DNA of 64,000 nt from Loripinus fragilis. Lineage: Eukaryota > Mollusca > Bivalvia > Lucinida > Lucinidae. The notes beneath the pieces are model-generated. The model had not been told where the DNA came from and did no database searches. It saw only the letters and a list, made by a program, of their open reading frames with translations. Every line of letters starts with the position of its first letter. Position 1 is the first letter of the stretch. Position numbers and translations under genes: made by a program. This document shows, piece by piece, positions 3,885-60,900 of this stretch. The DNA lies in assembly GCA_964019695.1 (NCBI GenBank), contig OZ026524.1:27196164-27260163 (forward strand), written 5' to 3'.

Positions 3885-3921
3885 ATGAGGCTCAAAACTA
3901 CGTTGCAGAAGGAACCTAAAC
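3885..3921 (+). CDS. IFT80: IFT80 coding exon 1 (start codon, U12-type donor)
   Basis: ATG at 3885 opens [12 protein letters not shown] plus one base. This matches the IFT80 N-terminus (MRLK...L.KEPKH). The exon ends at C 3921 and is followed by ATATCCTTTT, a perfect minor-spliceosome AT-AC donor. Reading on through the intron hits a stop after 22 codons. No canonical GT donor in the right phase exists here. Confidence 0.9.
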
Positions 3922-6900: not shown

Positions 6901-9900
6901 CAGGTATCTTCTTATCACTGGTATAACTACACTTGTATTGACTCGAGGTATGCGGTGATGCATGTTATGAATTCTATTTTAAATTTGTGTGGCAAAACAC
7001 CTGGTTTCTGCCACAAAGTTCTCCAGTTCTGATAGTATGACGCTTCTCCAGTCTTTGTAAATGTCGTCCTGTTTTGCATTTAACAATAAGTTCATGTCCA
7101 AATGTATGATACCACATGTTGTGAAGAGCTTTTTTTCTGGTTAATTCTCTGGCTGTATCAAAATCATTGCACTCAAGCAGGTAGTGACTGACAGTTTCCT
7201 TTGCTCCACACTTACATAAATCAGAGTCTTGAAATTACACTTATGTAGATATTCATTAAGACCTACATATCCTGGGCTTTTACTAAAACACGGAACGGGA
7301 CGGAATAGAACGGGATGGAACAGAACGGAATGAAAATGGAACCCTACGGAACAGAGCATTAACGGAACAGGGAACAAAACGGAATGTTGCGGAACAGACC
7401 TAGGGAACGGAAATGATCATCACCGAACGTAAGCAGTACTACGGAACGTTGCGTCAGAACGAGACACAGTAACGTTGCTAAACATTATCAATTTAATTGA
7501 ACATAGTTAAAGTTGTTAATAATAGAATTATCTCAATAAAATGTAGAATTAATAAATAAAAATCCAATCTACAGATAAAAAAAATGGCACAAGCAGTGCT
7601 AGAAGCACAAAACGGAAAATACACAAGGGAATTGCCAATTGCAACAACAGAAATTTTGGCTTTGTTTAAGTCAAATGAAGTTGTTACAAGTATCCCTTTC
7701 CGTCCTTCTGGTGGTGATTTATTCGTATTAAGCACTGAAAATCCACTTAACATTGAGGTAGTGCTAGAATGGTAGTCCATTCCCAAAATGTCTATTCCCA
7801 AAATGTCTATTCCCACTATGTCTACTGTGCCAAAATGTCTATTCCCATTATGTCTACTGTGCCAAAATGTCTATTCCCAAAATGTCTACTCCTTTGGTAA
7901 AAATGAATTAATGATGAAGAACTGATATATGTTTTAGATATTTGGAAATAAGTAGGTTCTGCCATGGATATAATTGTGATTTAGGTCAATGCAGCAATTT
8001 TTTAAGACAGATGGGATTACCCGACCGACGGATGGACCTCAGCTCGATGGGTATACTGTAAGCTCACCATGTGAGCCTTTGGCTCAGGTGAGTTATTAAC
8101 TTTAAAATTTTGGACACCATAAAATCTGCTATAAAAGTCTACTTGGAAGTCATTTAATTATTTTGAATACTTCGGACGCACACATGGACCGACTTGAGTG
8201 TTCTTCATTAACTTTTAATGTACTGTTTATACCAATGTTTTGAGAAATGTTTATATAAAAATCTTTCATTTTTTCACTGACAATGTTTTGGTCTGAAATC
8301 CATTTCTCTTCGTCTTTCAGTATGATATTTGGATCATCTTTGATGGTACTTTATGGGGCAAGAAAGGTTTGATTGTTGGCCAGAAATCTTAGATAACGTG
8401 TCTTGTGTTGTTGTTTTGATTTTAAAGTTCTGCTATACTTATTTTTTTCCCCATTTTTTCCCCCATTAATTTATGTTTTTTTGATAGTAGACATTTTGGG
8501 AATAGACATTTTGGCACAGTATACATAATGGGAATAGATATTTTGGCACAGTATACATTATGGGAATAGACATTTTGGGAATAGACATTCTAGCACCTAC
8601 CCTTAAGATTGATGACTGGAAGGCAGACGGACATACGTAAGTACATTTTATTTTAACTTTTTACTACTCTGGATCCGCTGATGGTTTTATTATACATGTG
8701 TTTCACAGTTGTTTCCTTTGCTTTTACTTTGTTCTGCCTGTGTTTCTGATCGCCGTCTGATCGAGTTTTTTCGTTTTTACAGATGGACCAACCAGGGAAA
8801 CAAAAAGCCTCTGCCTAGGACCAACCCTAAATATTTGAAATCCTATTACTACATCAAGACAGAAAACCGTTCGAATAAAGGATTCCGTAAAGACGTGTAC
8901 TTTCCAATTGGCACTGGTAACATAATCGTACACTATCTTGGAGACGAATCGTTGTCAGTGATGATGCCACATGGCAATTCAAACAAAAAGGAGCCTTACT
9001 TTAGAACAAAACCCTCAGTAAAGGAAGAGATTCAAAAGAAAATTGAAGTAGAGAAGCCGCACATAGTATACAAAAACTTAGTTTGTGAGAACGTGGAAGG
9101 CCATGATGCAGTATCAAAACCAAGAAACGTGAGGCAATTACACAATGCAAAAGCCACTAAACAAGAAGAGATTCGCTTGACGAGGGATGCAATTTATAAC
9201 ACACATGAATTGGCATATGAGGGTGGATTTATCCATTTTCTGTCTACTTATCCAGATCTGTGCGTTGTTGCTGGTGATGTTGAAATGGTTCAGGAACTCA
9301 ACACCGTTATACAATTAAGAGACGAGGATCTGCTTTTGAGTTATGACACTACATTCAATTTAGGAGAATTTTATGTGTCTCCTTTGGTTTTCAAACATGT
9401 AATTTTTGAAGCCAATCCTTTAGTAGCTGGCCTTTTCCTAATCCATGAAAGAAAATTAAGCGAAACACACAAACATTTTTTTAAGATTCTCTCTTCCTTG
9501 GTAAAAAATATGAAAGGGGTACCAATCGTAACTAATATGGAATCAGCCATAGTAAAGGCAATAAGAGAAAATACAACATTAAAGCAGATTGGATGCTGGC
9601 GCCATCTCCGTCAAGATGTCCAAAGGTGGTTATCTGACAACTTACCCAAAGTAGAGCGGTCAAAATATGTGAATGAGCTTTATGACATTTTAAGAACCAC
9701 AACAGAACGACAGTGCGTTGATATGATGAAAAAGATGGAAAAGCAGTGGGAGGAAGGCTTTACCAGATATTTCAAGAAATCAATTGAACCAAAACTTGGT
9801 TACTTCTGTGCCTGGTCTATTGCCAATTTGTGTAAACTGGACCCAAAGAACGGCATTACTACAAACCAATCAGAGGGCTTTAACTTTTTGTTGAAAGACT

Positions 9901-12900
9901 TTCAAAGCTGGAAAGAAGTTCCCTTGGATTCGCTGTTAATGTCCCTCAAACTTATCCAAGGTTTTTGTCTTGAGGAAGTACATAGAGGAAAGGCCAACTT
10001 GGGAATGTTCAGATTAAAGCCAAAATATGCAAGGTACGTCTAGTTTTTTTCACAAGAAACAACAGAACAAAACGAAACAGAGTGTGTTTTTGTATCACTG
10101 TTCCGTTTTTGCAAAAATAGAAAGAGAGTAATATCTGGAAATACCGCAATCACAAACCGCAGACAACCCCATGGCACTGTTCCGTTTTTTGCACCACTGT
10201 TCCGTTTTTTCCACAACGAAACAAAAAACGGAACAGTGTGTTTTTGTACCACTGTTCCGTTTTTTGCACTTCTGTTCCGTTTTTTCCACAACAGAACAAA
10301 AAACGGAACAGTGTGTTTTTGTACCACTGTTCCGTTTTTAGCACCACTGTTCCGTTTTTTCCACAACGGAGCAAAAAACGGAACAGTGTGTTCTTGTACC
10401 ACCGTTCCGTTTTTTGCACCACTGTTCCGTTTTTTCCACAACAGAACAAACAAGACCAAACTCTGCTCTGGACCTGCGTCGCAGGAGCAAATCGTCAATG
10501 TGTAAACAGTCTATATGCAAAGTTCAAATAAACAGGAATGAAATCAGATTACACCCAAATTTCGCAATGTAATCTATAGTAAGCATTTCAGATGAAAAAA
10601 ATGTCTAAGTTCAACACCCGTCAAAAATGAGAAAAAATTTATGAAACGTGCACAATATAGGAGGTGCACATCTTCAATATGTGAACAATCATAAGGCAAA
10701 GTTTGAATGAAAAGGAATGAAAACTTATTGCGTTACAGATTACACAAACTTGGCACCCCTAAAATGTTGTGGACTATGAATCCAGAAAACTATTGTGCCA
10801 CCCAAAAGACATTGTGTCATCACTAAGAGACCGAGTGCTCAAAGAAATAGATGGAGATGAAAGTATAGATATGCCCAAGTCTGAAGATGCCCACAACAGC
10901 AGGGTTTTACGAGCAAAGTTGTTGGCATCAAGTGACAGCATTGCTTTTTCCGCCAAACTTGGTGTTTTTGTTATTGCTGACCAAACAGCTATTTACACAG
11001 TAAGACTCTATCCGACAGAGTCATGTACTTGCCCAATAAAAAGGAATTGTATCCACATTCTTGGAGTTAAGATTGGGCAAAGAATGACAATAAATGAGGA
11101 AGACCTGGCGATACAAAAGAATACAGCAGTTGTCAGAAAGAACACCCGCCCAACAAAGCAAAAGCCGGGAAGAAAACGTCCCAGACCAGGTGATATATCT
11201 CCAGTTCAGAAGAAAGAAGTAAAGATTGACCTTGACCAAGTTGTGAGAGGATTGGAAGAATCTGGAATACAGCCAGTGAACGACTCACAGCTTTCAAAAC
11301 AGAGTCTTGATGCACTCATTGAATAAGAACAAGAAATCCAAACTGAACTCAATGGCAAAAGTAAACTGCTACCAGATGGAACGGAACAACAAATGAACAC
11401 AGAACACCCAATGCACGAATATTCATTTATTAACATGATTACGTCAACACCAAAATCGCCTGAGCTCTTGAAAGATGTGCGTTACAGTCTGGAAGTTTGG
11501 GTACCTGCAGACAAGCAGAAACTTTTCCATAATTTGAATGTAAACGATCGAAAAATTCTACAGAAAAAGACTGGCTGGCTGAATGACACGATAATTGATA
11601 GTGCCATGAATTTGCTTCAGTATCAATTTCAGGGTTTAGAAGGGTTCCAGTCCTGTACATTAGCAGTTCAACTTGACTTTGAGCGTCATCAAAAATTATT
11701 CATCCAAATTATAAACCGCAGTCCACACACCAAAGGCACCCACTGGTTGACTGTAAGCAATATTAACTGTATGGCAGATGAGGTAGGCATATACGATTCA
11801 GTGTTTGATGATCTACCCCACAATGAACAACTGGTCGTTGCAAGCCTGGTGAAGACGGAAAAGAAAATACTGAAAGCTAAATTCAGCAATGTTTAGATGC
11901 AAACGAACGGGAATGACTGTGGTTTGTATGCAATTGCTAACGCAACTGCTCTAGCCTTTTGCCGAGATCCCTCAAAAGAACAGTATATACCAAGCAAATT
12001 TAGGGAACATCTCATTCAGTGTCTCGAAAACAAAGAAATGAGACCTTTCTCAACCGCAAAGGGAACAAGTAAAAGACGAAAGGCTATAAAAAAGACAGAA
12101 AACTTGCAGTTATACTGTGTTTGCAAAATGCCTGACACACACACTAATTATTTTCTTTGTGACCAATGTTCTGATGAGTACCACCCAGAATGTCTTGGGC
12201 TAGATATGTTACAACACAAAGACCGTTCATTTATATGCCCAGCATGTTGTAATCAATAAAAAAAAGGTCATTTAACATTGAGAATAGATCAAATAAAATT
12301 TTAAAACTTTTTACGTCGCTATAAGTGTTCCGTGTTTTAGTAGTTTCTCCTTTGTCAATGTTCCGTGTTTTAGAATGTTGTCTCTAGCCATTGTTCCGTG
12401 TTTTAGTACTTTAAATCTTCGTTCCATTCCGTCCCGTTCCGTGTTTTAGTAACGACCAATATCCTGTCCTTAATTGAGATATAATACTCTCCCCTACTGT
12501 TGATGCAAATGAATGTTTTATTGTATGTCCCACATTAGGTCTGAATGTATATAGGTTTCTACCTCTGTCTGAAGTCTCCCATCTGCTCTGCCACTTTACG
12601 TTACCGGATTCTTTTGCTGCCATCTTTACATCACCAAATGATGACACAGCTTGGAGATCTTCAGCATCTTTGGCTTCCTGAGCTGCTTCCTTTGCCTGTT
12701 GATCAGCCAGCTCATTTCCTTTGATATTTGCATGCCCAGGCGACCAAGACAGCTCAACCTCTACTCTTAAATCCTGTAACCTATTTATTTCTGACTTTAC
12801 CTCTTGAGTTGTAGTCCTATGAGATTTTGCTTCCCACTCAAGCGTCAACTGTCCAACCGCGCTCTGGCTGTCTGAAAAAATATGGACCTTTCTTAAGTCT

Positions 12901-15900
12901 GATGGTTTCTGTGTTTTGTACCTATAGAGGTATTGAAGGGCCATTTTAATTGCAACTACCTCTCCAAGGAGAATAGATCCTCTGCTGTTCACTGGCTGCT
13001 TTAGCAAAATTTCTGGAGGAAAGACACAAGCTCCAGCACTACAGGGTCCAGGATTTCCAAGACAGGAGCCATCTGTGAAAATAACTGCTGTTCCATCATC
13101 ACAACTGTCAAGAATGCTACCAATGATCTCTCTAGACAATTCCTCTTGATCTCCTGTCCTTGACTTTTAAGAACCAAGGATATTCCAATAATCTGGTTTC
13201 TGTTTACTTGGTTGTAGAGAGTCTAAGTAGTTACACTCCTTCTCTAAGTTGTTTAATGAAACACCAGTGTTTGAAATCATATCCGCCACCTGCATGTTCA
13301 TTTTCCCAAATGGGGATAACCTCTGCTCAGTTTCCTCTTTGTCCTGGAAATTATCCCAGCTAACTTTTATGTTTTCTTCATCCCCTTTCATCATTATCCG
13401 GACGGCTTGTCTAACAGCCAGTTCTTCTCTTCCTATCTCTAAGGGCTTTATCCCCGCTTCCACCTCTAACGCTTCCAAGCCAGCTGTTCCTGGAACACCT
13501 AAACATACAGCCAGTCCTTTCATCTGGATTTTTTCCAATGCTGCACAATTACCTATCTGCCATACTGCAGCTGCATACTCTAACTGTGGGGTGACTAAGG
13601 CCCTGTACAGCTGCAGCATACATTTTGTATTTATCGCTTCAGTTTCCTTCACCTTTCTTAGTAATGCAACTGTTTTCAATGCTTTCTGTTCCACTTTCTC
13701 TGTATGCAATTCAAACTTTAACTTTTCATCTAGGGTTACTCCAAGTAATTTTGGAGTTGGATTATGTTTGATTGTTTTGTCATCTATGGTAAAATTATAT
13801 TTACTGGCCTCTTCCAGGATGTGGTTATCCAAAGAAAACACACAGAACTCTGTCTTCATTAAACTTATCTTTACCCGCCATCTTCCTGCATATTCACATA
13901 CATGCCTCTTGAAGTCCTCCTTTAATTCATCCAGCAAATATCTCCAATCTTCTCCACTCTTCCATATAGTCCCATCGTCCGCAAATTTTACTTTCTTTCC
14001 ACTCACATTCTTGAAGCAATAAACTATGAACAGTAAAAATAACAATGGTGATAAAACCGACCCCTGAGGAAGACCAATCTTAATACAAAACTCTTGGGCT
14101 CTTTTTCCTGCCATGTTGATCACTGCTTTTCTGTCTTTTAAGAAACTCTTTATCCACTCCCAAACTCTTCCTCTTATTCCCAATTCCTTCAGCTTGAACA
14201 AAAGGCCCTCATGCCAAACACTGTCATATGCTTTTTCTATATCTATGAACAAGGCAGCAGTACTCTCTTTTTTGATAAAACCATCAACTATGTCCTGGGT
14301 CAAACGTAACAAGGCGTCTACAGTTCCTCTAAATCTTGGAATCCTTCCTGCTCTTTGTCTATGAGATTAAAGTGTTCTGCAAAGCCATATAATCTGTGCA
14401 TTACAATTCTTTCCATGGATTTGCATAAGTAACTGGTCAGACTAATAGGTCTGTAAGATCAAGGATCATGATAACTGTTTTTGCCATTCTTCCGTAGAAA
14501 TTTAACTTCCGCAACTTTCCATTTAGATGGTACAACTGCCTCATTCCAAGACCTCCAAAACAATTTACATATAGCCATTTTAAACTCTTCACCAGCATTC
14601 TTCAGTAACTCAGTGAAAACTTCATCGGGACCTGGAGACTTGTTAGTTTTGAGAAGCTGCAACGCAGCCTCCACCTCACCAATAGATATTTCATAATTTA
14701 GAAACTCGTTACAGTTAATCAATTCTTCTCTGCTCTTTTCTGATGATTCATCGTCGTTTACTAGTACCGACTTCTCCACAAACGTCTTGAACTGCTCATC
14801 AAACTTACAGTCATCCAAGTGTTTTCCAGCAAAGAAACCCTTTTCCAATAATGCACACTTTTCTTCTCTGTCAAAAACTGCCTTTCCTTCTTCGTCCTTT
14901 ACTGGCAATACACCCCCACTGTTGTATTCTTGATATGTTGTAAGTTTGATGAGGCTCTCCCACATCTCTTTTCCTGAGCTGGCAACCGAGATTTTACTAC
15001 ACAGTACCTGAGTCCAAGCCACCTTTGCTTCTTCTGCAGCCCAATCAAAGGCATCTTCAGTGTTTTTGAGTATTTCAAAATTGTCTGGGGTACTTCACCT
15101 CCTTAAGCTTTTTTTGGCTTTATTCAATTCATTCTTTGCTTCTGTAACTTTGTTGTTCCATTGTGGTGGTTTCTTCCTCCTATTCTGTATTCTACCTTCT
15201 TTTTTGGGGACTGCTTCAATCATACACTAAGTGTATACTTCCATAAATGAATCTGCCATCTCATCCACTGACTTGTACTTAAAATCAGATTCATTCCAAG
15301 CTTTGAACCTTTTCTCAGTGCACTCGCTTCAAATATTGTACTTAGCCTTACCAATAATAAATTTTTCAAGAATAGCATTTGTATATCTGTATTCTTCATA
15401 CACTTGTAACAATACCCCAATGTGATCAGACCTAATTACCTCATGCAACATCGTTTCACACATTGCTACCTCAGGTACTACCCTCGGGCTTACAATAAAC
15501 AGATCAATGACACTATCACTCTGTCGCCTGGTTGGCTTCCCATCATTTATACAAATTAGGCCAGACCTGTGTAAATAATCTTCCAGTAAATTTCCGCATG
15601 CATTTGATTTTTTGTTGTTCCAATCTATGCTTTTTGAGTTCGAATCTCCTGTCAATATTATATGTTTATAATCTTTCTACATCTGTCAAGTACTATCAAT
15701 AAGCCTTCCAACTGCTCTCTCTTTTCTGGGGGCACATACGCGACAACCAACATAAAAGAATTATTCTTGTTAGTCGTTACTTTAGAACATAATAGCTTCT
15801 ACCGTATCCAGCTCCAGTTCCGGTTTCCTTTCTATAATAACCCCATTCTCATCATCCTTATATAAAATTGCAACACCACCATAACCGACCTTTCTCGGTT

Positions 15901-18900
15901 TACTAATTTTAGACTATTTTCTGAATGTGACAGGCTCTCGAGCACTTTCAAAAGTCTCTGTCAAACACAAAACATCAACTCCATAGCTGTCCACCACCTC
16001 ACTGAAGTCTGATTTAGCCGTTTTCCAGGACTGACAGTTTATAGAAAATAATTTCATTTCTAAACTAAAACATACAATTCTTTCTGAATTTCTGCAAGAT
16101 TTCAGTATAATTTGGGCAATATTTAGATGAGCTTTTATGAAGACTGCCACAGTTGGCGCAGACACTTGGTAATGAACACTCTCCTGTTGAGGGATGGTCC
16201 TCTGATCCACAATTTTCACACCATGTTTTAAAAGTACAATTTGCAGCAATATGGTTAAAACGATGACACGAGAAGCAAGGAATGGCTTTTCTTTGTTTTT
16301 CTTCGTCACAAAATGCCTTCTTTCCATTTAATTTGAATATGTAATCCACCTTTATTGCCTTAGACAAGTCTGCATTGGACGCAAAGATAACCTTCCGTAT
16401 TGGCATGGGTTTACCACTGTTCCTATGAAACACTCTTCTAACTTCTAGAACATTGCCAATATAAATGTATCGTTTTAAATATTCAACCCTCTCTTCGAAT
16501 CTTGTTTATTCAAAGAAATGATAAATTGGAGTAATGCCCAATTAAAGGACCCTTGTTAACCTCTATTGATAACTAATAATCCCAATTAATGTGTCAATAG
16601 GGGAAATTGACCAGCCTAATTAAAGGACCCTTGTTAACACAAAGAACTAACAACCAAATCAATGTATATGATTAGTAAAGGTGGACCTATATACTAGTAT
16701 GTGAATAGTTGACACTGCATTTTTTCAAACTTATTGTATGACTCTCGTATTCCAAGATTAGATTTTTATTCTGTAATGTCCAATATATAGAAATGCATTA
16801 GTAAAAAATGTATATAGATCTATATCAAATTATAAACAAAATATTATTATATTCATCAATCAATAATCACCTATTAATGTTTCCCTATTATTCTTTGGTC
16901 TTTCCAGTATTTTGGAGGTCTTTCCGGTAATTCGGATCTTTCCGGTAAATCTAGGCACCGGTTAATTTTAGTAATTCACTTTGCAAACTGATGATGGGAT
17001 GTCATGTTTATCTCCATAATTATACTTCAACATTCCCTCATGGACATTTTATGCTGCTCTTTCTAGGTAGAAAATGGTTCATCTATCTTTTTCTACTGGC
17101 AGGATCGCATGCTAGTGAATTGAATATATGTTCCTATACAGGACACAGTCGTCCGCGAACAGGCTAACAGAAGACCTGATGTTATCCTGCAAGTTGTTTA
17201 TAAAAATAAGGAACAAGTGAGTCACTGATCAGCACCACCAATACTGTGTTTTAACCGAACTATATATCAAGAAACAAGCTTAGGTTAGACTAACTTTTGG
17301 AATCAATCTAGCAATGGAAGCTTAATACATAAAGACAATATTGATTTTCCCAATTTTTAATAGTCGAAACAACGCTAATTTTCCCAATTCCACGGGCCCC
17401 AGTCCCATTCCCAAAAGCCATGTCTTAAAAACACTGCAGTAATTAGTCACATCCCATCATCATCAATCAGTTAGTTTGTTTTCTCAGCTTCTGCTGTATT
17501 TGATAAAGTATCTACTCCAATCAGAATGACGACGGACATGCTCAACGGACATGTCTCATTGCCATAAAAATGTCCCAAATATTGTCTCACTCAGTCACTG
17601 CTTGGAGCAGTTATTGACTTGACTTGACTTGATCCTGAGTTTATTTTTCTACTGCTGCGGGTGAATCCCAGGTACAGTTATATTCATGCATTTTCAACAG
17701 TTGTGTAAAGGCATGTGAAAGTGCATGGCTTAATACTGTTTTTTTTTTAATTTTTTTTTTGTTTTACTTCCTGTCGTCGTTTGTATTGATGTGTACTTGA
17801 CGATTAGCAAATATGTCTTGTGCGTGTCAACTCATTAATTACACTAAACTTCCTGCTGACACCAAATTTGTTATCTTTAATATTGAAAAGAAAAAGGTTT
17901 TGAAATATCTTTCAAATATAGATATAAGTAAAGCAACAGGAACAGATGGCATTGGGCCAAGATTATTAAAGCTGGCTGCCCCAGATATAGCTGAACATGT
18001 TACCTTCATTTGTAATCACAGTATAAATAATTCTGTTTTCCCAAATAAATGGAAGGAAGCAAAAGTAACTCCCCTCCACAAAGGTGGTCCCTCTGAAGAA
18101 GTTAACAATTATCGACTAATTTCAATTTTGCCTGTTTTGTCAAAAGTACTTGAAAAGCATGTTCATGACTGTCTCTCTTACTTCCTTCATAATTTTAAAT
18201 TACTGCATAAAACTCAGTCTGGTTTCAGAGCTGGTCACTCATGTGAAACTGCTCTAATACACATGATTGATTCTTGGCTACATGCTATTGACAATGGCCA
18301 AATGATTGGTGTTGTATTAGTGGACTTCAAGAAAGCTTTTGATCTTGTTGATCATCAAATACTTTTGTCAAAACTTGAAATATATGGCATAAAAGATGAA
18401 GCCCTACAATGGTTTAAAACTTAAAATCTAACACAAAGAAAGCAGCAAGTTTATGTTAACAACAGTAAATCAGACATTGGACAAGTGTCCAGGGATGGAG
18501 TACTCATACTCATACTTGTACTCGTACTTACTCGAGTACTTTTTTTCAGTACTTAGCTGTACTCTGTACTTAGCAAAATTCATGAGTACATGTACTCGTA
18601 CTTACTTAAGTACTGTTACAAAAAAAAACCTGTACTCATGAGTACTTTACGAGTACTTTTTAAATTTCAATCAGATAGGGAAAAAAAAGTTAATTATATC
18701 TCAGGCCTTCCTTCATCTGTTTCAAATGCCCCTCATCTGTTTTTTTTCAGACTTGAAAAAAAGTGGCCTCCTCTATTTTTTTAGATGCCACAATCAAAAG
18801 ATTGTCATTTTTATGCTTAAAATGAACAAAAAAGGTGCCCCATTATGTTATGATCAAATAAAAAATAAAAAAGTGGCCTCATCTGTTTTTTTGAGAAATA

Positions 18901-36900: not shown

Positions 36901-39900
36901 AGCGATAAATCTCTCTCTGGTTGTATGCACTGCGCAGGTCTGGTTTCACTAGAGGAACCAGACCAAATCTGTGGTCGGACCATAGTTGATTGGTTCCCGT
37001 CCTCCAATGCAAACTTGGAATGGCCGGAAACCTTTATGTTTTTTATCGATGGCTGTTATTGGTTGACTGTTTTACTGGGGAGGAACGCTGACAGTCGGAA
37101 GAGCAACTATGGTCTCTATGGTTAACGCGCAAACTCCACCATAATTGGCTGTTGTATGTAAACTACTCAAAAAACTTGTTCATTTCTACAGGCTCATTAC
37201 ACTGAAACATAAAAGTAGTTGAGAAGCTTGTGAAAAACACACATTTATTGAATTGACATAATATGTTGTATGTGCACATTGGAATTGCCTCTATATGTCT
37301 TTAGACTTTTTTTAAAACCAAACAGATAGCCTCTGACCACTGAAGTTTGGCTAAGAAGAATAGAATTATTTGTTCCTAGGGTTCTTGACTAAAACATAGC
37401 ATTTTAATGGGACCAATCATCCAGATAAGTGTGTGTAAATGAAAATTTATTTTCTTATTTCTCAACCTAAACGCATGTTGTGGGTACTCAAATGAACTGT
37501 CTCTTTGAGACAGTTCTTTTGAGCACCCAAAACATATGTTAAAATTGATGTGTAATAAAATATTTACAATTATACACACAAAAAAAGTTGCTTATCTAGA
37601 CCTATGGGGACTAAACTTCAGCAGTATCGAGTATGGGTACTAAACATCAACTGTATCAAGTATGGGGACTGAACTTCAACTGTATCAAGTATGGGGATTA
37701 AACTTCAACTGTATTGTGTATGGGGACTAAACTTCAACTGTATCTAGTATGGAGACTAAACTTCAACGGGGACTAATCTTCAACTGTATCGAGAATGGGG
37801 ACTAAACTTCAACTGTATTGAGTATGGGGACTAAGCATCAACTGTATCGAGTATGGGGACTAAACATCAACTGTATCGAGGATGAATGAAAATAAACCTG
37901 TTCATTCTGTTTATTATTTTGAATATTTTCACAGTGGAAAGGTCATGAAGGTGTGATACTTCAAGTGGACTGGAACCCTGTTAGTAATCTGATCCTGTCA
38001 GGTGGAGAAGATTGTAAATATAAGGTAAGACTGGGAGTGTATTTTGGCTTGCCTTACATAACTCTTCATAAACCTAATTTTTTTTATTTGTCAAGCCCCT
38101 AGATAAGACTGGGTAATCAAGATTTAATTATTTTGCAACCAAAACATAAGTTGTGGGTACTCCTTTTGATCACCCAAAACATACGTTAAAAGGGACGGGT
38201 AAGAAAGTATTCACAATTTTACACTACCAGGCTGCGTAGCGCAGTCGGTAAAGTGTCTGACTACAGATGCATGTCTGACTGAAGATCCAGGGGTCACAAA
38301 TTCTATCCCGGCCCACACCATTACTTTTGTGGAGATTGATCACAAAATAATTTCTACGGCCATTCTCCTCCCTTCCCCTGATTCATGAAGGGTTGTTGTC
38401 ACTTACAAGCGAAAGAAAGTGCACAAAGTACTGGTTTACCACTTAGTCAAGCTTGCCCAGGAAAAAAGTGTTGTTAGGTGAAATGACCATCCCGACATGA
38501 CCGTAGCTGTTGACTGGGATGTTAAGCATCAAACCAAACCAAAAAAAACAAGTGTACGCTCAAGAATTTGTTACCTAAATTGTAATTAAAAAACAAGTGT
38601 ACGCTCAAGAATTTTGTTACCTAAATTGTAATAAGGGAGCACAGTGGTAGAGTGCTTGACTCGAGACCGAGCGGCCGCGGGTTTGAGCCTCACCGGCGTC
38701 ACTATGTTGTGTCAGCAAGACACATTAATCCTTGCTTAGTATTGGTTTATCCCAGGAAGACCCATCCAGACATAACTGAAAAATTGTTGACTGGGAGGTA
38801 AAGAATCAAATCAAACCAACTAAATTGTAAGGATCATTGACACTTGCTATGGGTAAATGCCTATGGTTTTAAGTAAAAATAAAAGTTTGTCAATCATCCC
38901 TTTCTTCGCCTTGATGCTACCCTGACCTGAGTACTTTATGGCTGTGAAATCCGTTTTCGATATTAAATGCTTCAAAGATGTAAAATTTTGGGTAGAACAA
39001 TTAGTTTTACATTAAGATATATAGGAATCCGAAAACATTTTTTAAAATATCATTCCCACCCGTGTGCCAGCAAAAGCTTTTGCCTGCATATGTGTTACCA
39101 TATTTTACACTTTGTATTGAAGTGGCTTGCTGGCACACGGGGGGGAAAGATGTTCAGCAGCCCAAAAACCCAGGGCCTAAGCCCACAAAATGCCTTTTCT
39201 ACCAAATAAGAAATTAATGACAGTCATGAAGTTCTCTAGAACCAACCTCCTAAATTGCTTTGCATTCTGTGCTCGTTTAATATAAAGTACTTAAAAATTA
39301 AAAGTAGGATTAGCAAGGTTTTATGCATTTTTTCATAAGAAAAAATCTCACTGTTATTAAATGACACATTATTTTGAAAACGTCCTGTACTTATCTATTT
39401 GCATGCTAGGGAATTGTTCATGTTTTTATTTTCGTCTGCTGAGTTTCTTCAAAATTAAGTTTTTAAAAAATAAACCACCCAGGACCACCATCAGAGTGTC
39501 AAACAGTTTGGATCCAGATCAAGACCGACATTCTATTGGTCTTCATCTGGGTTCAAACTGTTTGCAAAAGGCTATTGACAGACGACAAAATTATCCACTA
39601 GCATGCAAATAGTTATAACAGGTAAATACTTTAGTGTTCAATATATTGTCTCATATAGGGATATACATGCATCATGTATACCATAAATATTAGGACACTT
39701 TAAATACATTCAACATGCTATGCCCTTTAAACAAAGCAAAAGTAATATTCAAAGGATCTAGTTAGAATCAGTTTTACTTCCAATGCTAAATGGGACACTT
39801 TCATTCCTTCAAAAATATTTATTTCATTTGTTGAGCTTTCAGTTTTGTATTATTTACGGTACATGTAGTCAAAAATGTACAGGTAACTTCTAAATTATCT

Positions 39901-45900: not shown

Positions 45901-48900
45901 TAACAAATGTTTTGGTTGAGAATTAAGAAAAATAATTTACTAACCCACCCTTATCTAGCGGCCTGGTACATAGAATTTCCAGCAATTATACTGGCCACTT
46001 ATGGCTTAGTCTCAAGTTTTGAGCTGTGTTGAGGCATATTGTTAATGTCATGAAATTTGAAATGAGTGACATCACTAAATTTACATGACAACCTGTCTTC
46101 ATGGTTTGCGACCAGGTAAGGCTTAATCTTGGCTACCTAGCTACAGAGACTAGCTAGAATATTGAAATTTTGCACACAGCAAAGTTTAGCTGTTATACTT
46201 GCCAGAGAGAAAACAGCAAAGGTGCTGACCAGACTGCACAGTTGTGCAGTCTGGCCAGCACCTTTGTTGTTTGCATACAATTGAGTCAGACTTTTAGTTT
46301 CAGAGGACATGGCCAATTAAGCAACAGGCAAATTTTTCCATGATGGCAAAATCATTTTTAAGCCTTGTCTGAGAACATTTAAAACATTTATGAATGTCAT
46401 ATTTTAATCTCATAAATATCCTCTTAGAATTCTGTATTAGATTTATGAATTTTTTAACCACAAAGAGTATAATGTAGGAATGTATCAATGCATTATAGAA
46501 AAAAACTGAAAGGTGTGAACCATTCATTACAAACTTCCCTCATTTTGAAATCCTAGAGTAGACCCCCGCATTTATAACATAGCAATTTTTGAAGAAAGGG
46601 AGTTGTGTATTAATGAAACAAGAACAAGGAATAACAAAGCCAACACTATAAGGTTTACTCTGCAACCAATGCCTTAAATTTCGTACATATATAAACCCCA
46701 TTCTATTCTGAGTGTAATGGGTTTAACTATTATACACCTGTAAGGACCAAAACTCTATGGAGTTTTTTAGCCATTCTTGGGACAATATAGTTAAAATTTT
46801 GACTTTTGGGCCATTTTTGGTGCAATAGGCTTAAAATCTGGAGTTTTTTTATTTTGGCAGATCTTGGTGCAGTAAGCTTAAAATCTGGAGTTTTGTCCTT
46901 TCTGTGTGTAATATGGCTAAAATCCGGAGTATGGGCCATTCTGTGTGTAATATGGTTTAAATCTTGAGTTTTGGCCATTCTATGTGTAATATGGCTAAAA
47001 TCCGGAGTATTGGCCATTCTGTGTGTAATATGGTTAAAATCTTGAGTTTTGGCCATTCTGTGTGTAATATGGTTAAAATCTTGAAGTTTGGCCATTCTGT
47101 GTGTAATATGGTCAAAATCTTGAGTTTTGGCCATTCTGTGTGTAATATGATCAAAATCTTGAGTTTTGGCCATTCTGTGTGTAATATGGTTAAAATCTTG
47201 AGTTTTGGCCATTCTGTGTGTAATATGGTTAAAATCTTGAGTTTTGGCCATTCTATGGTTAAAATTCAACCTTTGACTTTTATTATTGCAGGAGACTGGA
47301 GTGGAGTAATTTTGAAGCTACCTTAACAGAAAGTAAGAAGATCACAATACGAAATGTTCTCAATGACAGTCACGAGAAACTGGACTTCAGAGATAGAGTT
47401 ATCAAGGCATCACTGGCATTTAATCATCTTGTAGTCGCTACTTCGTCACAATGTTATATATACAGGTAATTTAATCATCTTGTAGTCGCTACTTTGTCAC
47501 AATGTTCTATATATAGGTAATTTAATCATCTTGTAGTCGCGACTTCATCACAGTGTTATATATACAGGTAATTTAATCATCTTGTTGTGGCTACTTCATC
47601 ACAGTGTTATATATACAGGAAATTTAATCATCTTGTAGTCGCTACTTCATCACAGTGTTATATATACAGGTAATTTAATTATCTTGTAGTAGCGACTTCA
47701 TCACAGTGTTATATATGCAGGTAATTTAATCACCTTGTAGTGTCTACTTCATCACAGTGTTAAATATACAGGTAATTTAATCATCTTGTAGTCACACCTT
47801 CATCAAAGTGTTATATACAGGTAATTTAATCATCTTGTAGTGGCTATTTCATCACAGTGTTATATATACAGGTAATTTAATCATCTTGTAGTCGCTACTT
47901 TATCACAGTGTTATATATACAGGTAATTTAATTATCTTGTAGTCGCGACTTCATCACAGTGTTATATATACAGGTAATTTAATCATCTTGTAGTTGCGAC
48001 TCCATCACAGTGTTATATATACAGGTAATTTAATCATCTTGTAGTCACTACTTCATCACAGTGTTATATATACAGATAATTTAATCATCTTGTAGTTGCG
48101 ACTTTATCACAGTGTTATATATACAGGTAATTTAATCATCTTGTAGTCGCGACTTCATCACAGTGTTATATATACAGGTAATTTAATCATCTTGTAGTAG
48201 CGACTTTATCACAGTGTTATATATACAGGTAATTTAATCATCTTGTAGTTGCAAATTCATCACAGTGTTATATATATAGGTAATCTAATCATCTTGTAGT
48301 CGCGACTTCATCACAGTGTTATATATACAGGTAATTTAATAATCTTGTAGTTGCAACTTTGTCACAGTGTTATATATACAGGTAATTTAATCATCTTGTA
48401 GTTGCGACTTCATCACAGTGTTATATATGCAGGTAATTTAATCATCTTGTAGTCGCGACTTCATCACAGTGTTATATATACAGGTAATTTAATCATCTTG
48501 TAGTTGCGACTTTATCACAGTGTTATATATACAGGTAATTTAATCATCTTGTAGTCGCTACTTCATCACAGTGTTAGATATACAGGTAATTTGATCATCT
48601 TGTAGTCACTACTTCATCACAGTGTTATATATACAGGTAATATTTAAGGCCCCTGTATCAAAGATTGCAAGGATATATTGTGTTTTGGTCTGCATGTATT
48701 TTTAGAGTATATCAAAGTGAAAGACTTGTTTATGTCATGTTAATATTGATGTTTTTATGTCCAAAAACTTACTTTTTATTCAATAATCATTGTTTGATAC
48801 AAACCCTCCTATTATTAGGGGACATACCAGACGTAGTAATGTCTGAGCATGTTTGGGTATGGAGGAACATTAATACAGCTACTTTCTCCCAATAACGGAA

Positions 48901-51900
48901 ACTGTAGATAGTTGACTGTGTTGAGAAAAGCTGGATATTTGATAAACTGGTTAATAACCAAACAGTGCGGTTGTAAATTTTTGATGTTTTAATGTCTCAA
49001 AGCTACCCATTTGTGGATATAATTATTGTTTTATACAAACCCTCCTATTATAAGAGGACATACCAGACGTAGTAATGTCTGAGTATGTTATTTTCTTGCA
49101 CAGTAGAAACTATAGTAGTCGCCTGTGTTATGAAAAGGTGCACATAATATTTGCTCAGAGCCAAACCATACATGTATCTTCAAGTTCCAGGAGTTGATTT
49201 AACCTGCTCTTGGACTGAAATCAGCATATGGGCTGCGGTGACACAAGAAAACTTGTCTTCAGGGTTTCTGACAAAGTGAGATTCAAACCAGCTTGCTCAG
49301 CTACACATACTAGCTAGAAAATTGAAACTTGGCTTGTAGTAAGTGTAGATATGATACTTTCCAATAAGCAAATGATAAAGGTGCTGATCAGTCTACTGAA
49401 ATGTACAGGCTGAAATGTAGGACTGTCTGCACCTTTGTTGTTTGCAAACCCTGTAGACAGGTTTTCTTGCGTTGAGGCCCATATTTGTATAATGATTTTT
49501 AAGTAGCTGCAGAATGATTACGAAGAAATTCAATATATTTTGCAAATTTCAGTCTGTGGTCCCTTAAGATATATAACAGGCCTTTAGTTAAGAGTATGTG
49601 GCAGAAATTGAACCATCACATTGAGACCCCACAACATATGTTTTGGTTGAGAAATAAGAAAAAAAATGTGCATTCTTAACTAAAGACCTGTAATGTATCA
49701 AAAATAGTTTGTCTTATGGCTGGGTGCGACAAGTTTAAAAATACTAAAACAAGGCTATCAATATCATTAACTTTGTAAAGCATTCGACGAACCTCCTAAT
49801 ATTAGGGGACATACCAGACCTAGTAATGTCTGTTTGGGTAGGGAGGAACAGTAACAGCGCTACTTTCTCTGAATACACACTCAACAGGTAGTGCCCTTAG
49901 TAGAGATTAGCTGGACATAGGCTATCAATATCATTAACTTCGTAAAACATTTATCAAACCTCCTATTGTTAGGGGACATACCAGACCTAGTAATGTCTGA
50001 GTATGTTTGGGTAGGGAGGAACAGTAACACTACTACTGTCTCTGAATACAGGCTCAACAGGTAGTGCACTGTGTAGAGATTAGCTGGATATAGGCTATCA
50101 ATATCATTAACTTCATAAAGAATTTGTCAACCCTCCTATTAGTAGGGGACATACCAGACCTAGTAATGTCTGAGTACGTTTGGGTAGGGAGGAACAGTAA
50201 CACCGCTACTGTATCTGAATACAGGCTGAACAGGTAGTGCACTGTGTAGAGATTAGCTGGACATAATTATGCCATTGTTATGCCTCAACTGCTTGTAAAA
50301 TTACTTAAAATTAATTATACATTAAGTATTGTAAATTCAGAATTTTTGCGAGGGTTTTTGATTTGCGAAAATTTACATATGCAAAGTTTTGTGAAAATAA
50401 AATCTTCGGGAAATGGGGAAAACACACTTTTGTTTACTGATATAGGTAAATCATACCCTAGTTGCAAATTTTTAACATCACAAATAGTTCTTTTAATGCT
50501 ATTCGAGAAAATTAAATTCTCGCAAAAATTTCCGAATTGACAGTAAACTGCTTATCAAATTTCATCTGAAGGGAAGCAATACACTTCTTAAAGCTCACTC
50601 TATAAAAAAAATGAACTTACAATATTTTAAATTGATTACATATTAGGCTCAGATAAGCAAACAATTTGTGTGTAAAATTGTCATTATTTTCTCATTGTTC
50701 AAGTAAGACATATAATGTGAATGCTCGAATGAACCTAATCCCACTAAATGAGACTTATAAATTCAGTTATTATCATTCACATCTACATTTACATTCTGTC
50801 TTTTTATATCCATGTTTATATTTTACATTGACAGTCTAAATTTAACGCTAGAAATGTCCGATGATAAAAAATGAAATCTGAACCCTAAAAATTGGTGTAA
50901 AAATCTCATTGAGATTTTTCTTTGGAGCACCCACAACAGATGTTTTGGTTGAGATGTTTCATTACACATTTTTATCTGGCAGTCTATTATGATATACTGG
51001 ATATTTTCAGTGGGGAAGCAAATAACAAAGCAGAGAAAGTGTTAACTTTTAATAGTAGGAACCATTAAGTCATCATCTGCTGTTTTATTTAAACTCATTG
51101 ATCATTGAATTTCAAAATCAAAGGATAGAAATATGTATGACCTACTGAATTATTTCCTTTGTTTTGCAGTACCAAGAATTGGAACACACCAATGATCTTT
51201 GACCTGAAGGAGGGCAGTGTCTCACTAGTTATACAGGCAGAAAAGTAAGTAATAAAATTTTGTAATATTTCTCTGTGCATGTTGTGTAATTTTTTTCAAC
51301 TTTTTATCGTCTACTGCCTTTTTTCTCCAAAATTAAGCAGTAATTGGTCTTGAAAACCAGTTTTAGGTATTTTTGAGAGTGGCAATTTTACACAGGTTTT
51401 ACTGTAAATAAAATTTGGATGGTTTATTCCTTGCATGCTGGGTAAGTTTTCCAATTTTTTTATCTTTTGCTGACATTTTTTCAAAATTAACTTTTTAGAA
51501 AAATAAGATTAGGAAAACTCTCTGAGTGTCAAACAATTAAGATCCAGATCAGGACCGACAGCTTGCCTGTCCTGATCATGATCCAAACTGTTTGCAAAGG
51601 TTATCAGCAGATGTCAAAAGTCGCTGCTTGCAAGCAAAGAGTTAAAGAGCAAAATTTGTTAACTCTTTGCCTGCTAGTGTCTTCTGTAGATAGCTTTAGA
51701 CCCTGGCCCCGAGTTTATAAAACTTTTTTCATGTTCAACTTAACTGAGCACTAAATTTCAACTGCTCACAAAAACTAAAATACCGACAAATAAAGAAGTT
51801 TTTTGCTTTGACTCTCTCAGATGTTGTATTTATCATGCTAATAAATGTTAAAATGCCCACAAAAAGGACGCCAGGCTTATATTGGCTAAAAGCCTTGTTT

Positions 51901-54900: not shown

Positions 54901-57900
54901 GTGACACAGGCTTGTCTGCAGTTTGTGATTGTGGTATTTCGTGTTCATACTCATTATTTTCAATCTAGAACACCCCATTGGCCCATTTGAAAGGCGATTG
55001 GCGCAATTTTGGATGTCTACCGGTCTTCTGTTCGTAGAAAACTGGGTTCTGTATAGGAAAATATATTCACTTCAGGACTGTCTCATCCTGCAAGAAGAAT
55101 TTAACTCACTAGCTTAGGACAGTGGGAAGCTGATTGGCAAATGAAATTTTATGAAGACAGATGTCACTCTGTCACCCCCTGGGGGATCTTCACCCTGGAT
55201 TCTGCTGTTGTCAAAACACAACATTTGTTTAACTTTGGTTCGGCCTATAATCTTGAGAATGCAGCACTGATTTGAACCCCACATACAGATTTGATTTCAG
55301 TAATTCTTTACGTCCCATCAACAATCTTTCAGTTATATAGGAACAGGTCTTCCTGGGTTGAACCAGTACTAAGCTAGGATAAATGTGTCTTGCTCAAGGA
55401 CCACAACGCAGTGATGTCGGTGAGGCTCACAGCCCGCGGCACTTCGGTCTTGAGTCAAGCACTCTACCACTGAGCCACTGCGCTCCCAAAAAAAACCCCA
55501 CATACACTCTAAAACTTAGATTAAATTGAGAACGCTCTGAGGACGGCAGCCCGTTGGACCTGCAGATGGCGAAATGCAAGTAGTGTTTAGCAAAATGCTT
55601 GATGAGTTTGAGTGGACATCTCTTGAGGCCTGCATTGTGGGTATTGGTCTTCTTTCCTTCTCTTCCATAGGGTTCATTGTGGTGCTGTGTCTATCGAAAA
55701 AGACACATACTTAAACCTGCCCACAGTTCGAAAGTTACCAGGTTATCACATTGGATACTAGAAATACGCCCCCAGAAATATAGTTATCAAGTGCGGATCC
55801 AAAGGGGGAACAGGGGGTCCGGACCCCCCCCCCCCCCCCCTGGAAAATCACAAGTTATATGGGTTTCTATAGGGAATAAGCAATTTGACCCCCCCCCCCC
55901 CCCCCCCCCCCCCCCCTGGAAAAAGTTGGACCCCTCTGGAACCTTGAAAAATGACAGATTTCTTTGAATTTGACCATTTGACTTCTGTAAAATAAGTTGA
56001 GGACTAAAAAAAAAAAAAAAACGTTGTCAGAGCTTATTTTTGACAGACTGACCTTGACCCCCCCCCCCTGACGAAAATTCCTGGATCCCTGCATGGTTAT
56101 GTCCTGAAGAATAAGTTTTTCCCCTTACTGTTCCCACTTTGAAATATTTCTCCTAATGCTGTCACTACCCATACAACAGAAGAGATGAAGGCTCTCTCAT
56201 TTCTTCCAAACACAACAAAAAGTTCGTTGTTTATTCTCCAAACTTCAAAATTAGCACTCCTATCCGTAATTACCAGCATAAAGAAGATATTTACTGGGGC
56301 CGAAATCGCGCGGTACGAATCTTGCGCGCTACGAAAATATGATTATCAGCTTATTTGCAATCTATTTTCCGTAAAGTAACAATTTATTTTCGTGTTTTTA
56401 TCGGTAATAAAATATGAAGAAGGTTGGTATGTTTCTAAAAGTTACTTTATTTCATATTAGTTCCATCTTTGTTGCTGTCTTGAAGGCCAATTACAAATGT
56501 CATTAGTTTTCGTGACCATTCCAGTTCCGATGAACTCAGAAAAAAAACATGTAGATTTTGACTGTTTTATCACCTGTTAGTATGAAGGCCCCTTCTTTTT
56601 CTGAATGACCCCTTTTATAGATTATATGAGCCCTATTGGCATATAGATTGAACACAGCACATGGCGGCACCAGCTACGGAAAACGGTCATTTTATCCATT
56701 TTTTTTTTACAGAAACACCATTTTAATGTTTAGGGTCGCAGGTTTTTAAATAGGCACGGTCGGCAACCGGAACCACACATATATTTCATTTAGGCCTAAG
56801 CAAACAACAAAAAAAGTGTTCACAGAGTTAATGTTGTCCAATGACATGGGTAGCCTTGTTGTTTCAGCTTGAGGTTATGGGTTATGAAGGTAGCTCATAA
56901 TCAGTGTGGTACAGCAGGAGAACTTTGAACTTTCGCCCATGTGCATGTGCATATTTCTTAACTAGATCCATGCATGGTAATTTTTCATGCTTTTGTTATC
57001 GTCTGCTGACTTTTTTCATAATTAACTTTTTCAAAAAAATTTCCCATGAACACTATCAGAGTGCCAAACCGTTTCGATCCAGATCAGGACCGACATTTGT
57101 CGGTCCTGATCTGGGTCCAAACTGTTTGCAAATGTTATCAGCAGACGACAAAAAGTCACCGCTAGCAAGGAAAGAGTTAATGCCCTTTAATGATAAGACT
57201 TGTAATGTTTTCAGCTTGAGGTTATTAGCTCTTAATCAGTGTGGTACAGCAGAAGAACTTTGAACTTTCACCCATCTGCATGTCGATATTTCTTGACTCT
57301 TTGCATGCTTGGTAATTTTTCATGCTTTTGTTGTCGTCTGCTGACTTTTTTCATAATTAACTTTTTCAAAAAAATCACACATGAACACTATCAGAGTGTC
57401 ATATGGTTTTGATCCAGATCAGGACCGACATTTTGTTGGTCCTGATCTAGGTCCAAACTGTTTGCAACTGTTATCAGCAGATGACAAAAAAGTCGCTGCT
57501 ATCAAGGAGAGAGTTAATGTCCTTTAATGATAAGACTTTTAATGTTTCAGCTTTAGGCTATGGTGGTAGCTCTTAATCAGTGAGGTACAGCAGGAGAACT
57601 TTGAACTTCCACCCATGTGCATGTGTATATTTCTTAATTTTTTGCATGCTGGGTAATTTTTCATGCTTTTGTTGTCGTCTGCTGAATTTTTTCATAATTA
57701 ACTTTTTCAAAAAATCACCCTTGAACACTATCAGAGTGTCAAACGGTTTTGATCCAGATCAGGACCGACATTTTGTTGGTCCTGATCTGGGTCCAAACCG
57801 TTTGCAAATGTTATTAGCAGACGACAAAAAATGGCCTCAAGCAAGGAGAGGGTTAATGCCCTTTAAAGATAAGACTTTTAATGTTTCAGCTTTAGGCTAT

Positions 57901-60900
57901 GGTGGTAGCTCTTAATCAGTGAGGTACAGCAGGAGAACTTTGAACTTCTACCCATGTGCATGTGTATATTTCTTAATTTTTTGCATGCTGGGTAATTTTT
58001 CATGCTTTTGTTGTCTTCTGCTGACTTTTTTCATAAGTAACTTTTTGAAAAAATCTTCCATGAAGACTATCAGAGTGTCAAACGGTTTTGGTCCAGATCA
58101 GGACGGACATTTTGTCGGTCCTGATCCGGATCATAACTGTTTGCAAATGTTATCAGCAGACGACAAAAAGTCGCCACTAACAAGGAAAGAGTTACTGCCC
58201 TTTAATGATAAGACTTGTAATGTTTCAGCTTGAGGTTATGGAGGTAGCTCTGGATCAATGTGGTACAGCAGGAGAGAGAAGACTAGCCATTATCGACAAG
58301 AATAGAGACTTGTACTTAACCTCAGTGAGGGTATTTGGAACAGACAGAAAAACAGTCAAACTGGGTAAGAAAATATTAATCATATTTGACCTAGTACGCA
58401 ACCAGAGTTCTCACTAGGATTTTGAAAACAGGATTCATAGAATCCATCCCTGGAAAAAGTTGGAGTCAAAATTGAAAAATTGGAGTTTGACCTGGAAAAG
58501 TTGGAGTTTTTAGTTTTAGCCGAAATATGAAAGTTTTATTTACGAATGTAATGTCTTTTATCCTGCGAAATGGCAATTTCAAAATCCTTGTGAGGACTAG
58601 CTGTGAACAAAAAAGATTTTAGACCAAAAATAATAGTTTTTATCAGGTTACCGTGACAAACTTAAATACCACTCTTCCCCAACCCCTACACAATATTTCT
58701 AAACATTGTTGGGGGATTTCAAAGGGGCTATATTGTTTTTCCCATCTTCTCCATCAAAATAAGAATATTTTCATTTTTTAAATTTCAGGTATCATGAAAC
58801 ACATATTTTTATGTTTGGCCTTAAAAATGAAAAGCTAATACTATTGATACATGTAGTTGTTTTATTCATTTACAAGCAGACAGACAGACGAACGGATAGA
58901 CAGACGGATCTTTTGCAGATGTATAGAGCTAGCTCAATCATTTAATTATTTCCATGCATGTGCTTTTTTTGCACCTAGTCTAGCTAGTCTATGGCGATTG
59001 TTCCAAAATTATTAAAGATGATTATTTTGATTTCCTACCTACGTGCGAGATGATTTCAATGGTATAAAATGAATGGGTTTTCTTGCTGAAAGTCATATGT
59101 CTAAGAGTAGTTTATTTGATGGATAAAACGCCGTTAATTGATTTTATCAATAATTTGTTGCTAATGACGCTTCATTCGGAACGTTTGCCTTATCAGACGT
59201 TATCCTATTTGGTTTACCGATGTACCATCTTATTTTTATTTTATCAACTATCTGTCGAACTCGAGCTGTGTAAGCAATTTTATGTGTTCAAAAAAGTTAG
59301 AAACATTTAAACGAATGTGCGACTATCATTTGTCTTTACATGCACTCGGAAAAGCTAAAACAACCGACCATGTGCTTCTCAAATTTGCATCGTCATCATT
59401 ATTGTCTTGTCAATAAAGAGGCTGTCGCTGTGCAACGGTCTGATTGGCCGAGAGCCAAATGAGATCATGCCTACTGCTATCGGTCGACTGGAATTTTATG
59501 ACAAACCCTGGGGCATCGGATTAGCGGCGACCTTTTGATCTTTTGTGGCGGAAGCCAAATTTGGACTCCCGCTGTCGTCTTCAGATGTTTTTAAGGAGTT
59601 TGAGACGTGTCAGCAGAAAAAAAATTGGCTTAAAATAGAATCCCCAGCAGGTAAATGTACGCATACAAAACCAAAAGTTGGCCTAAAAATATGCCTGATT
59701 CGGCGTTTCCGAGAACTCTGGCAACTTTATCAAACTTCTACCCTATCATTCAGGGGTACTGTGGTGTAGTAGATAAGCCACTCGCCTTGTAAACCAGGGG
59801 TCAGGGCAGGGGACAAAATTTCCACTTGTCCGCTCATAATTACGAGTGAAATCTGGAAAGGACGAGCAATTCTTCACAAAGCACTTGTCCTGTAGGATGA
59901 GTGCTTTGGGAAGAATTACTCAAGGAAGTCATATTGCATATTACTCCCTTATGTTCTTTATTGCATACGCTTTTAAAGGACAAGTGCATGTGTTTGCAGG
60001 ACAAATGAAAATTGTAAGTCACTCGTCCTGCAGGACAAGTGCAATATTGAAATATTTTTGTCCCCTGTAGGGGTTTGATTCATGGCTTCACCAATCTGAA
60101 GAGTTCAAGACTTGAAACTGTGGCCCACGTCTCCATATGACCTTAGCTGTTGGTGGAACATAATACAAACAAATCGTGTGGATCCCGGGAGTGCAGTGGC
60201 TCAGTGGTAGAGTGCTTGACTCAAGACAACATCACTGTGTTGTGGTCCTAGAGCAAGACACATTTATCCTAGCTTAGTACTGGTTCAATCCAGGAAGACC
60301 CGTCCCTGTTTAACTGAAAGATTGTTGATGGGACGTAAAGAATCAAATTAAACAAACAAAAAGTGTGGATCCTGATCAGCTGGCATCATCACACTGTTTT
60401 TCATCCACTTGAGGAATGAATACCACCAGCGTTACTGCACCACTGAGTTGACTTGAATTCCTACTGTCAAAAACCTGCAATGCAATCAATGTGCACTTAT
60501 TCTGAGCGCAATAGGATAAATGGCTCTGAATTCCTGCAGTAGAACACTATCAGTTCAGATGATGAAATATACTTAAGGACTTTGAAAACGCATCACCCAG
60601 ATTAAATCCTTTATTACACAAACCCTGAGAATGTCAGCGAGATAATTGTTATTGCATATCGTAGTCTGACCAGCTTGTAGTATGTCCTAGAAAATTCATG
60701 GTTGTAAGTTTACTTTAAGGTATTGAAAAAGTATCCGTTTTAAGACATGGCTGGTCAATTTTGAAGGACACAAATTCAGTTGCAAGTTAACACGCGTTAG
60801 TTTTTATTACTGACTCAACAGATTTGCGTCCTTTGCTTCTTACACGATTGATGACATTTATCATTGAACGATTAGAAATGAAATGACAGGTCGGTATGCT

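Follow-up and report, generated by a model that had tools for sequence, protein, structure and literature searches.

A tandem array of splice-donor copies at exon 9 of a bivalve IFT80 gene, probably a near-neutral minisatellite

The window (the whole 64-kb stretch of DNA analysed here) holds a 14-exon model of IFT80 at 3885-63409, free of internal stops, and the gene extends beyond the window. A peptide joined by hand from the window matched the IFT80 proteins of many animals (1,372 proteins at E <= 0.001 among 7,995 candidates scored; homolog comparisons rest on the best 120 of these 1,372) as well as the solved IFT80 chains 8bd7 and 5n4a, bearing out the gene identity that had been proposed in an earlier, sequence-only reading of this DNA. 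Among the matches listed, P0001 was the closest (555 residues aligned with the model without a gap, at 95% identity), and the closest named ones came from Dreissena polymorpha (87%) and Mya arenaria (83%), which makes a bivalve the most likely source of the window. The label 'exon 9', also from that reading, is correct when numbering begins with the first coding exon, of 37 nt, at 3885-3921. Exon 9 is flanked by introns of 2,634 bp (intron 8) and 3,704 bp (intron 9), and exon 13 by introns of 4,777 and 4,897 bp. The features around these two exons are as follows (a slash marks the splice point):

46765..47265 (BLAST) or 46878-47254 (Tandem Repeats Finder), plus strand: a distinct minisatellite of 39-bp units within intron 8, stopping 26-37 nt short of exon 9
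47292..47465, plus strand: IFT80 exon 9 (174 nt long), which contributes its final 48 nt to array unit 1; AG acceptor at 47290-47291, GT donor at 47466; exons 8-9-10 gapless against P0001
47418..48639, plus strand: the 51-bp array, a largely exonic unit 1 followed by 23 extra units, 24 in all and one of them only 49 bp long, from Tandem Repeats Finder and a split against the consensus
47466..47467, plus strand: donor 1 (CAG/GTAATT), the sole protein-preserving donor; with exon 10 opening on T ACC AAG, the join reads S T K, matching the homologs
47466..51169, plus strand: intron 9, its first 1.2 kb being the array
47469..48639, plus strand: the 23 extra units, of which 21 have AG/GT and 18 match CAGGTAATT exactly; units 4 (47619) and 13 (48076) have lost the GT
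51170..51244, plus strand: exon 10, from the gene model
56852..58275, plus strand: 339-bp array carrying the acceptor of exon 13 together with the first 47 nt of that exon, from Tandem Repeats Finder and BLAST of the exons against the window
58229..58364, plus strand: genuine copy of IFT80 exon 13, from the gene model

The 51-bp units run head to tail (Tandem Repeats Finder: 47418-48641, period 51, 24.0 copies, 91% matches, score 2014). Unit 1 consists of the last 48 nt of exon 9 plus GTA and is followed by the 23 extra units; the repeated unit spans an exon end and an intron start, its first copy is a genuine exon end, and most downstream copies carry donor sequence. The sequence-only reading had assigned 23 copies to 47466-48636, and the length arithmetic (1171 bp, or 23 x 51 - 2) is sound, with the 2 bp absent from the array accounted for by a 49-bp unit at 47775-47823. 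It had also placed a donor in every extra copy, AG/GT at every junction and TAA straight after each one, which is nearly but not wholly so: AG/GT is present at 22 of the 24 junctions, unit 4 reading GA and unit 13 AT in place of GT, and TAA follows directly at 23 of the 24, with unit 4 the exception. Because CAGGTAATT occurs 19 times on the plus strand of the window, every time within the array, and 0 times on the minus strand, the array is not a product of chance; these 19 occurrences fall at 19 of the 24 junctions. The last junction reads CAGGTAATA, and the exon side reads TAG in units 2 and 17. Past unit 8 the genomic frame is offset by 2 nt, which is immaterial because the frame has been closed well before that, by the TAA straight after donor 1.

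The extra units differ from the majority base at 57 of 1,171 bases and diverge from one another by 8.0% on average, and some non-adjacent units are identical (units 3, 15 and 21; units 14 and 22). This variation bears on whether the copy number is an assembly error, an explanation that we consider very improbable: tandem arrays are error-prone in assembly, but the units carry many private combinations of changes, which a false expansion would not invent, and the origin of the repeat at the exon border is independent of the unit count. The changes are clustered in a GTCGCG stretch (columns 19, 20 and 22 of the unit, with column 27 nearby), where, in the exon copy, two of the variable columns are fourfold degenerate; some of this variation may stem from CpG mutability, though not the T/G change. 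An apparent excess of synonymous changes in the extra units (10 synonymous and 16 non-synonymous distinct variants, Fisher p = 0.036) was rejected, since it was lost when transitions and transversions were split (p = 0.12 with and 0.07 without continuity correction), and half of the synonymous variants lie in columns 19 and 22. A coding role for the array was likewise rejected (the consensus unit has a stop in all six frames, and stop-free runs in the array reach 33 codons at most). Among the 8 lags tried for higher-order periodicity of units, the best was lag 8 (p = 0.011; lag 3, p = 0.044), not significant after correction, and no unusual RNA folding was seen for exon 9 taken together with five complete extra units and the greater part of another (z = -0.42; 34 of 100 shuffles folded at least as well).

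We assessed which donor would preserve the protein by joining exon ends and comparing the product with homologs. The AG that ends exon 9, joined to the first bases of exon 10, completes the S-T-K of the homologs, in agreement with the earlier claim that only the first donor is compatible with the protein. The repeated peptide is present once in each of the 120 listed homologs (threshold at least 8 of 15 identical residues), and in 112 of them it runs directly into exon 10 sequence (a looser pattern gave 113, by including P0002); therefore, donor 1 is the one that preserves the protein. The other eight are P0002 (Dreissena), with a short insertion at the joint, P0023, which joins exon 11 sequence directly, and six proteins that lack two residues. 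The P0002 insertion, SWGNFLQCVKNFNTP, sits exactly at the exon 9/10 joint and is a possible alternative splice. TAA directly follows donor 1 when the intron stays in there, and in model translation any decoy donor leads to one common product, 360 residues long and ending CYIYR-stop. An mRNA with a stop upstream of later junctions is expected to be degraded, and decay of the decoy mRNA is expected for that reason.

A second exon edge of IFT80 has also been amplified. When the 14 exons with 150-bp flanks were compared with the window (approximate exon ends, E <= 1e-4), exonic sequence was found copied elsewhere in the window for exons 9 and 13 only. At exon 13, Tandem Repeats Finder reported a 339-bp array at 56889-58275 (4.1 copies), to which an additional partial copy from 56852 can be joined, and the 339-bp unit includes an interspersed repeat found elsewhere in the window. 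Four decoy acceptors lie upstream of the genuine one, with TTTCAG intact in all (exon-side first bases at 56868, 57215, 57551 and 57890; genuine, 58229). IFT80 therefore has a donor-edge array downstream of exon 9 and an acceptor-edge array upstream of exon 13, a pairing that is new here, and the orientation of both is what survival requires, because added copies have to lie in the intron, outside the exon. Many further tandem arrays were found in the window (Tandem Repeats Finder).

We predicted the pairing of the donors with U1 (not forced to the exact splice position). Donor 1 and 19 of the 23 extra copies gave the same value, -8.1 kcal/mol, within the range of the 13 listed IFT80 donors (-4.5 to -11.5 kcal/mol) and at a level reached by 2.2% of the 1,851 other GT sites in the gene region. 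So many predicted strong donors in one place, each leading to the same premature stop, would suit an array under selection to regulate how much IFT80 is made, as a U1 decoy or a splicing control; the sequence-only reading had suggested a decoy or control of this sort. Selection for such a role was not supported by the distribution of changes. The nine donor positions of each unit had 5 changes in 207 sites, as against 52 in 966 elsewhere (two gapped cells counted), a difference in the expected direction that falls short of significance (Fisher p = 0.076); without the hypervariable columns 19 and 22, which hold 23 of the 52 non-donor changes, the donor positions were no more conserved than the rest (5/207 versus 29/920, Fisher p = 0.82), and 25 of the 51 nine-base circular windows, the donor window itself counted, had as few changes or fewer. 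The changes are few, so a modest conservation effect on the decoy donors is compatible with these counts. Two donors have been lost, and the presence of an acceptor-edge array elsewhere in IFT80 points to a mutational process of a general kind; taking both sides together, we regard selected decoy function as highly unlikely.

The AG/GT junctions are formally zero-length exons, which makes recursive splicing formally possible, and they could instead serve as both ends of new introns in multiples of 51 nt. Tandem duplication of AGGT-bearing segments can create introns, with reported cases in vertebrate ATP2A1, potato RdRp, Drosophila and fission yeast (PMC4974935, PMC2891723), and in fission yeast genes a 24-bp exon segment containing AGGT is described as occurring several times in tandem (PMC4974935). 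The IFT80 array resembles these in its tandem AG/GT-bearing units, and differs in that an existing intron has been lengthened at no new intron position: 2.5 kb of other intron 9 sequence lies between the array and the exon 10 acceptor, and intron 9 does not look new, judging indirectly by the protein models of two other bivalves, each of which is interrupted at this joint (the P0002 insertion and the P0023 join to exon 11). Pyrimidine content at -20 to -4 averaged 0.52 before the array AGs versus 0.69 for the 13 listed IFT80 acceptors (one of which, at exon 2, belongs to an AT-AC intron and was scored one base off), and was 0.58 before the second AG of the unit (TTGTAG). A typical unit does equal the weakest authentic acceptor, that of exon 13, at 0.53. 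The lower mean pyrimidine content makes recursive use of the array AGs less likely, and we give very little credence to recursive splicing or intron birth as an account of the array.

We favour, as the probable explanation, a splice-donor minisatellite that arose by duplication of the exon border, has since undergone ordinary repeat turnover and is near neutral because donor 1 is the one used. In support, unit 1 lies in conserved coding sequence with the repeats running on into the intron, and the window holds both many tandem arrays and a second amplified exon edge in the same gene. The second donor would have come from a tandem duplication with one breakpoint in exon 9, 48 nt from its end, and the other 3 nt into intron 9; the duplication joint runs from GTA (intron +3) to ATTTAATC (48 nt inside the exon), and both borders contain ATTTAA (GGC-ATTTAATC and GTAAT-ATTTAAGG), which is compatible with a short-homology event as the starting duplication. 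Later unequal exchange or slippage would have raised the array to 24 units, a turnover that we infer from the mean divergence among units together with the identity of non-adjacent ones. Because the duplication crosses the 3' edge of the exon and the extra copies all lie within intron 9, the intact exon 9 and donor 1 stay put. Donor 1 would be expected to win and the array to be removed together with intron 9, since exon 9 is flanked by long introns and exon definition favours the donor nearest the exon's acceptor; occasional decoy use would yield the single truncated protein on an mRNA expected to be degraded. The array would then probably be of little effect, because the first, true donor is the one used. 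The genuine exon 13 acceptor is also expected to be in use, with less support than donor 1.

Studies of human splice-site competition bear on this expectation from several sides. Between near-equal competing donors, the upstream one is reported as preferred in 60% of events; strict exon-definition cases lean upstream and strict intron-definition cases downstream, and in five exon-defined minigenes with two identical strong donors the upstream one alone was used (PMC9225289). The same source reports that, with no strength filter applied, about 60% of events favoured the downstream donor (these being human, not molluscan, exons) and that for acceptors the upstream preference was merely reduced with long introns, not plainly reversed. 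Against the minisatellite explanation, the decoy farthest downstream would be the one chosen under the classical intron-proximity rule, the donor sites do look slightly better kept when all columns are counted, and 'near neutral' may be too mild a description by analogy with the loss of CBS activity described next.

Donor-bearing repeats are already known, and rare. The minisatellite of IFI6 (6-16/G1P3) reportedly provides multiple splice donors, to go by the title of Turri et al. 1995. Two downstream repeat units of IFI6 are described as serving as donors (PMC4526556), so that the repeat-unit donors there are used and give isoforms, whereas each IFT80 decoy would introduce a stop. The closest likeness is the human CBS 31-bp VNTR, c.1444_1467+7(16_21), at the exon 13-intron 13 boundary (PMC2630376, PMC1395315, PMC5188458), whose unit, by its name, comprises 24 nt of exon end and 7 nt of intron in 16-21 copies; the name implies that the donor is repeated in each unit. 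Gene, unit length and lineage differ from those of the IFT80 array, and for CBS both polymorphism and an effect on activity are reported, enzyme activity being lower as repeat number rises (PMC5188458). By that analogy, IFT80 exon 9 is plausibly a variable-number locus. The analogy also lends some weight to a copy-number-dependent hypomorph, in which some transcripts would use decoys and longer arrays would lower full-length IFT80 with no selected function. The 21 extra copies that keep AG/GT, and the 19 whose predicted U1 pairing equals that of donor 1, speak for such an effect, whereas exon definition predicts that donor 1 is preferred; we hold this possible, at tentative confidence, and it is compatible with the splice-donor minisatellite.

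The exon 13 array has a human counterpart of the mirror type in CBS c.844_845ins68, a copy of the intron 7/exon 8 junction at which the distal site is strongly favoured (PMC2630376, where the sites are termed donors); CBS has one extra 68-bp copy, IFT80 exon 13 four extra copies of a 339-bp unit with an interspersed repeat. In the literature searched, donor-bearing repeats were found in two human genes (CBS and IFI6), with a short AGGT repeat in fission yeast genes, and a narrow search on bivalve minisatellites returned nothing on topic by title, from which we do not claim that a mollusc precedent is absent. The present case extends the known kind to another animal lineage, and the exon 9 array stands out by its count of intact decoys, its lineage and its paired acceptor array. 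It also offers a natural experiment on splice-site choice, since the intron-proximity rule and the exon-proximity rule make opposite predictions for exon 9, and automatic gene prediction could misplace the end of exon 9. A bolder reading, which we think rather doubtful, would make IFT80 a natural double test of a cross-exon proximity rule: the 21 downstream decoy donors of exon 9 and the four upstream decoy acceptors of exon 13, although their sequences are intact, would be ignored, each being farther across the exon than the true site, with leakage scaling with copy number and tuning or degrading IFT80 output between individuals.

Other features of the gene are noted here in their own right. 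Exon 9 sits between two arrays, the 39-bp one in intron 8 and the 51-bp one in intron 9, and intron 5 has a 29-bp array at 37603-37884 that stops 50 bp short of exon 6. Intron 1 (3922-30285, 26,364 bp), which we take from its motifs to be of the minor, AT-AC type, has ATATCCTTT at 3922, TTCCTTAAC at 30268 and a terminal AC, and neither of the two motifs is found a second time on the plus strand of the window. Human IFT80 is listed as a minor-intron gene (PMC13216214). Intron 1 also contains a retroelement fragment and transposon-like long open frames, at 12411-16505 (minus strand) and 8682-12259 (plus strand), the transposon likeness being judged by eye; a Pfam scan of two of these open frames gave no match, and a reverse transcriptase domain (PF00078) lies within 13167-14366, in the retroelement fragment.
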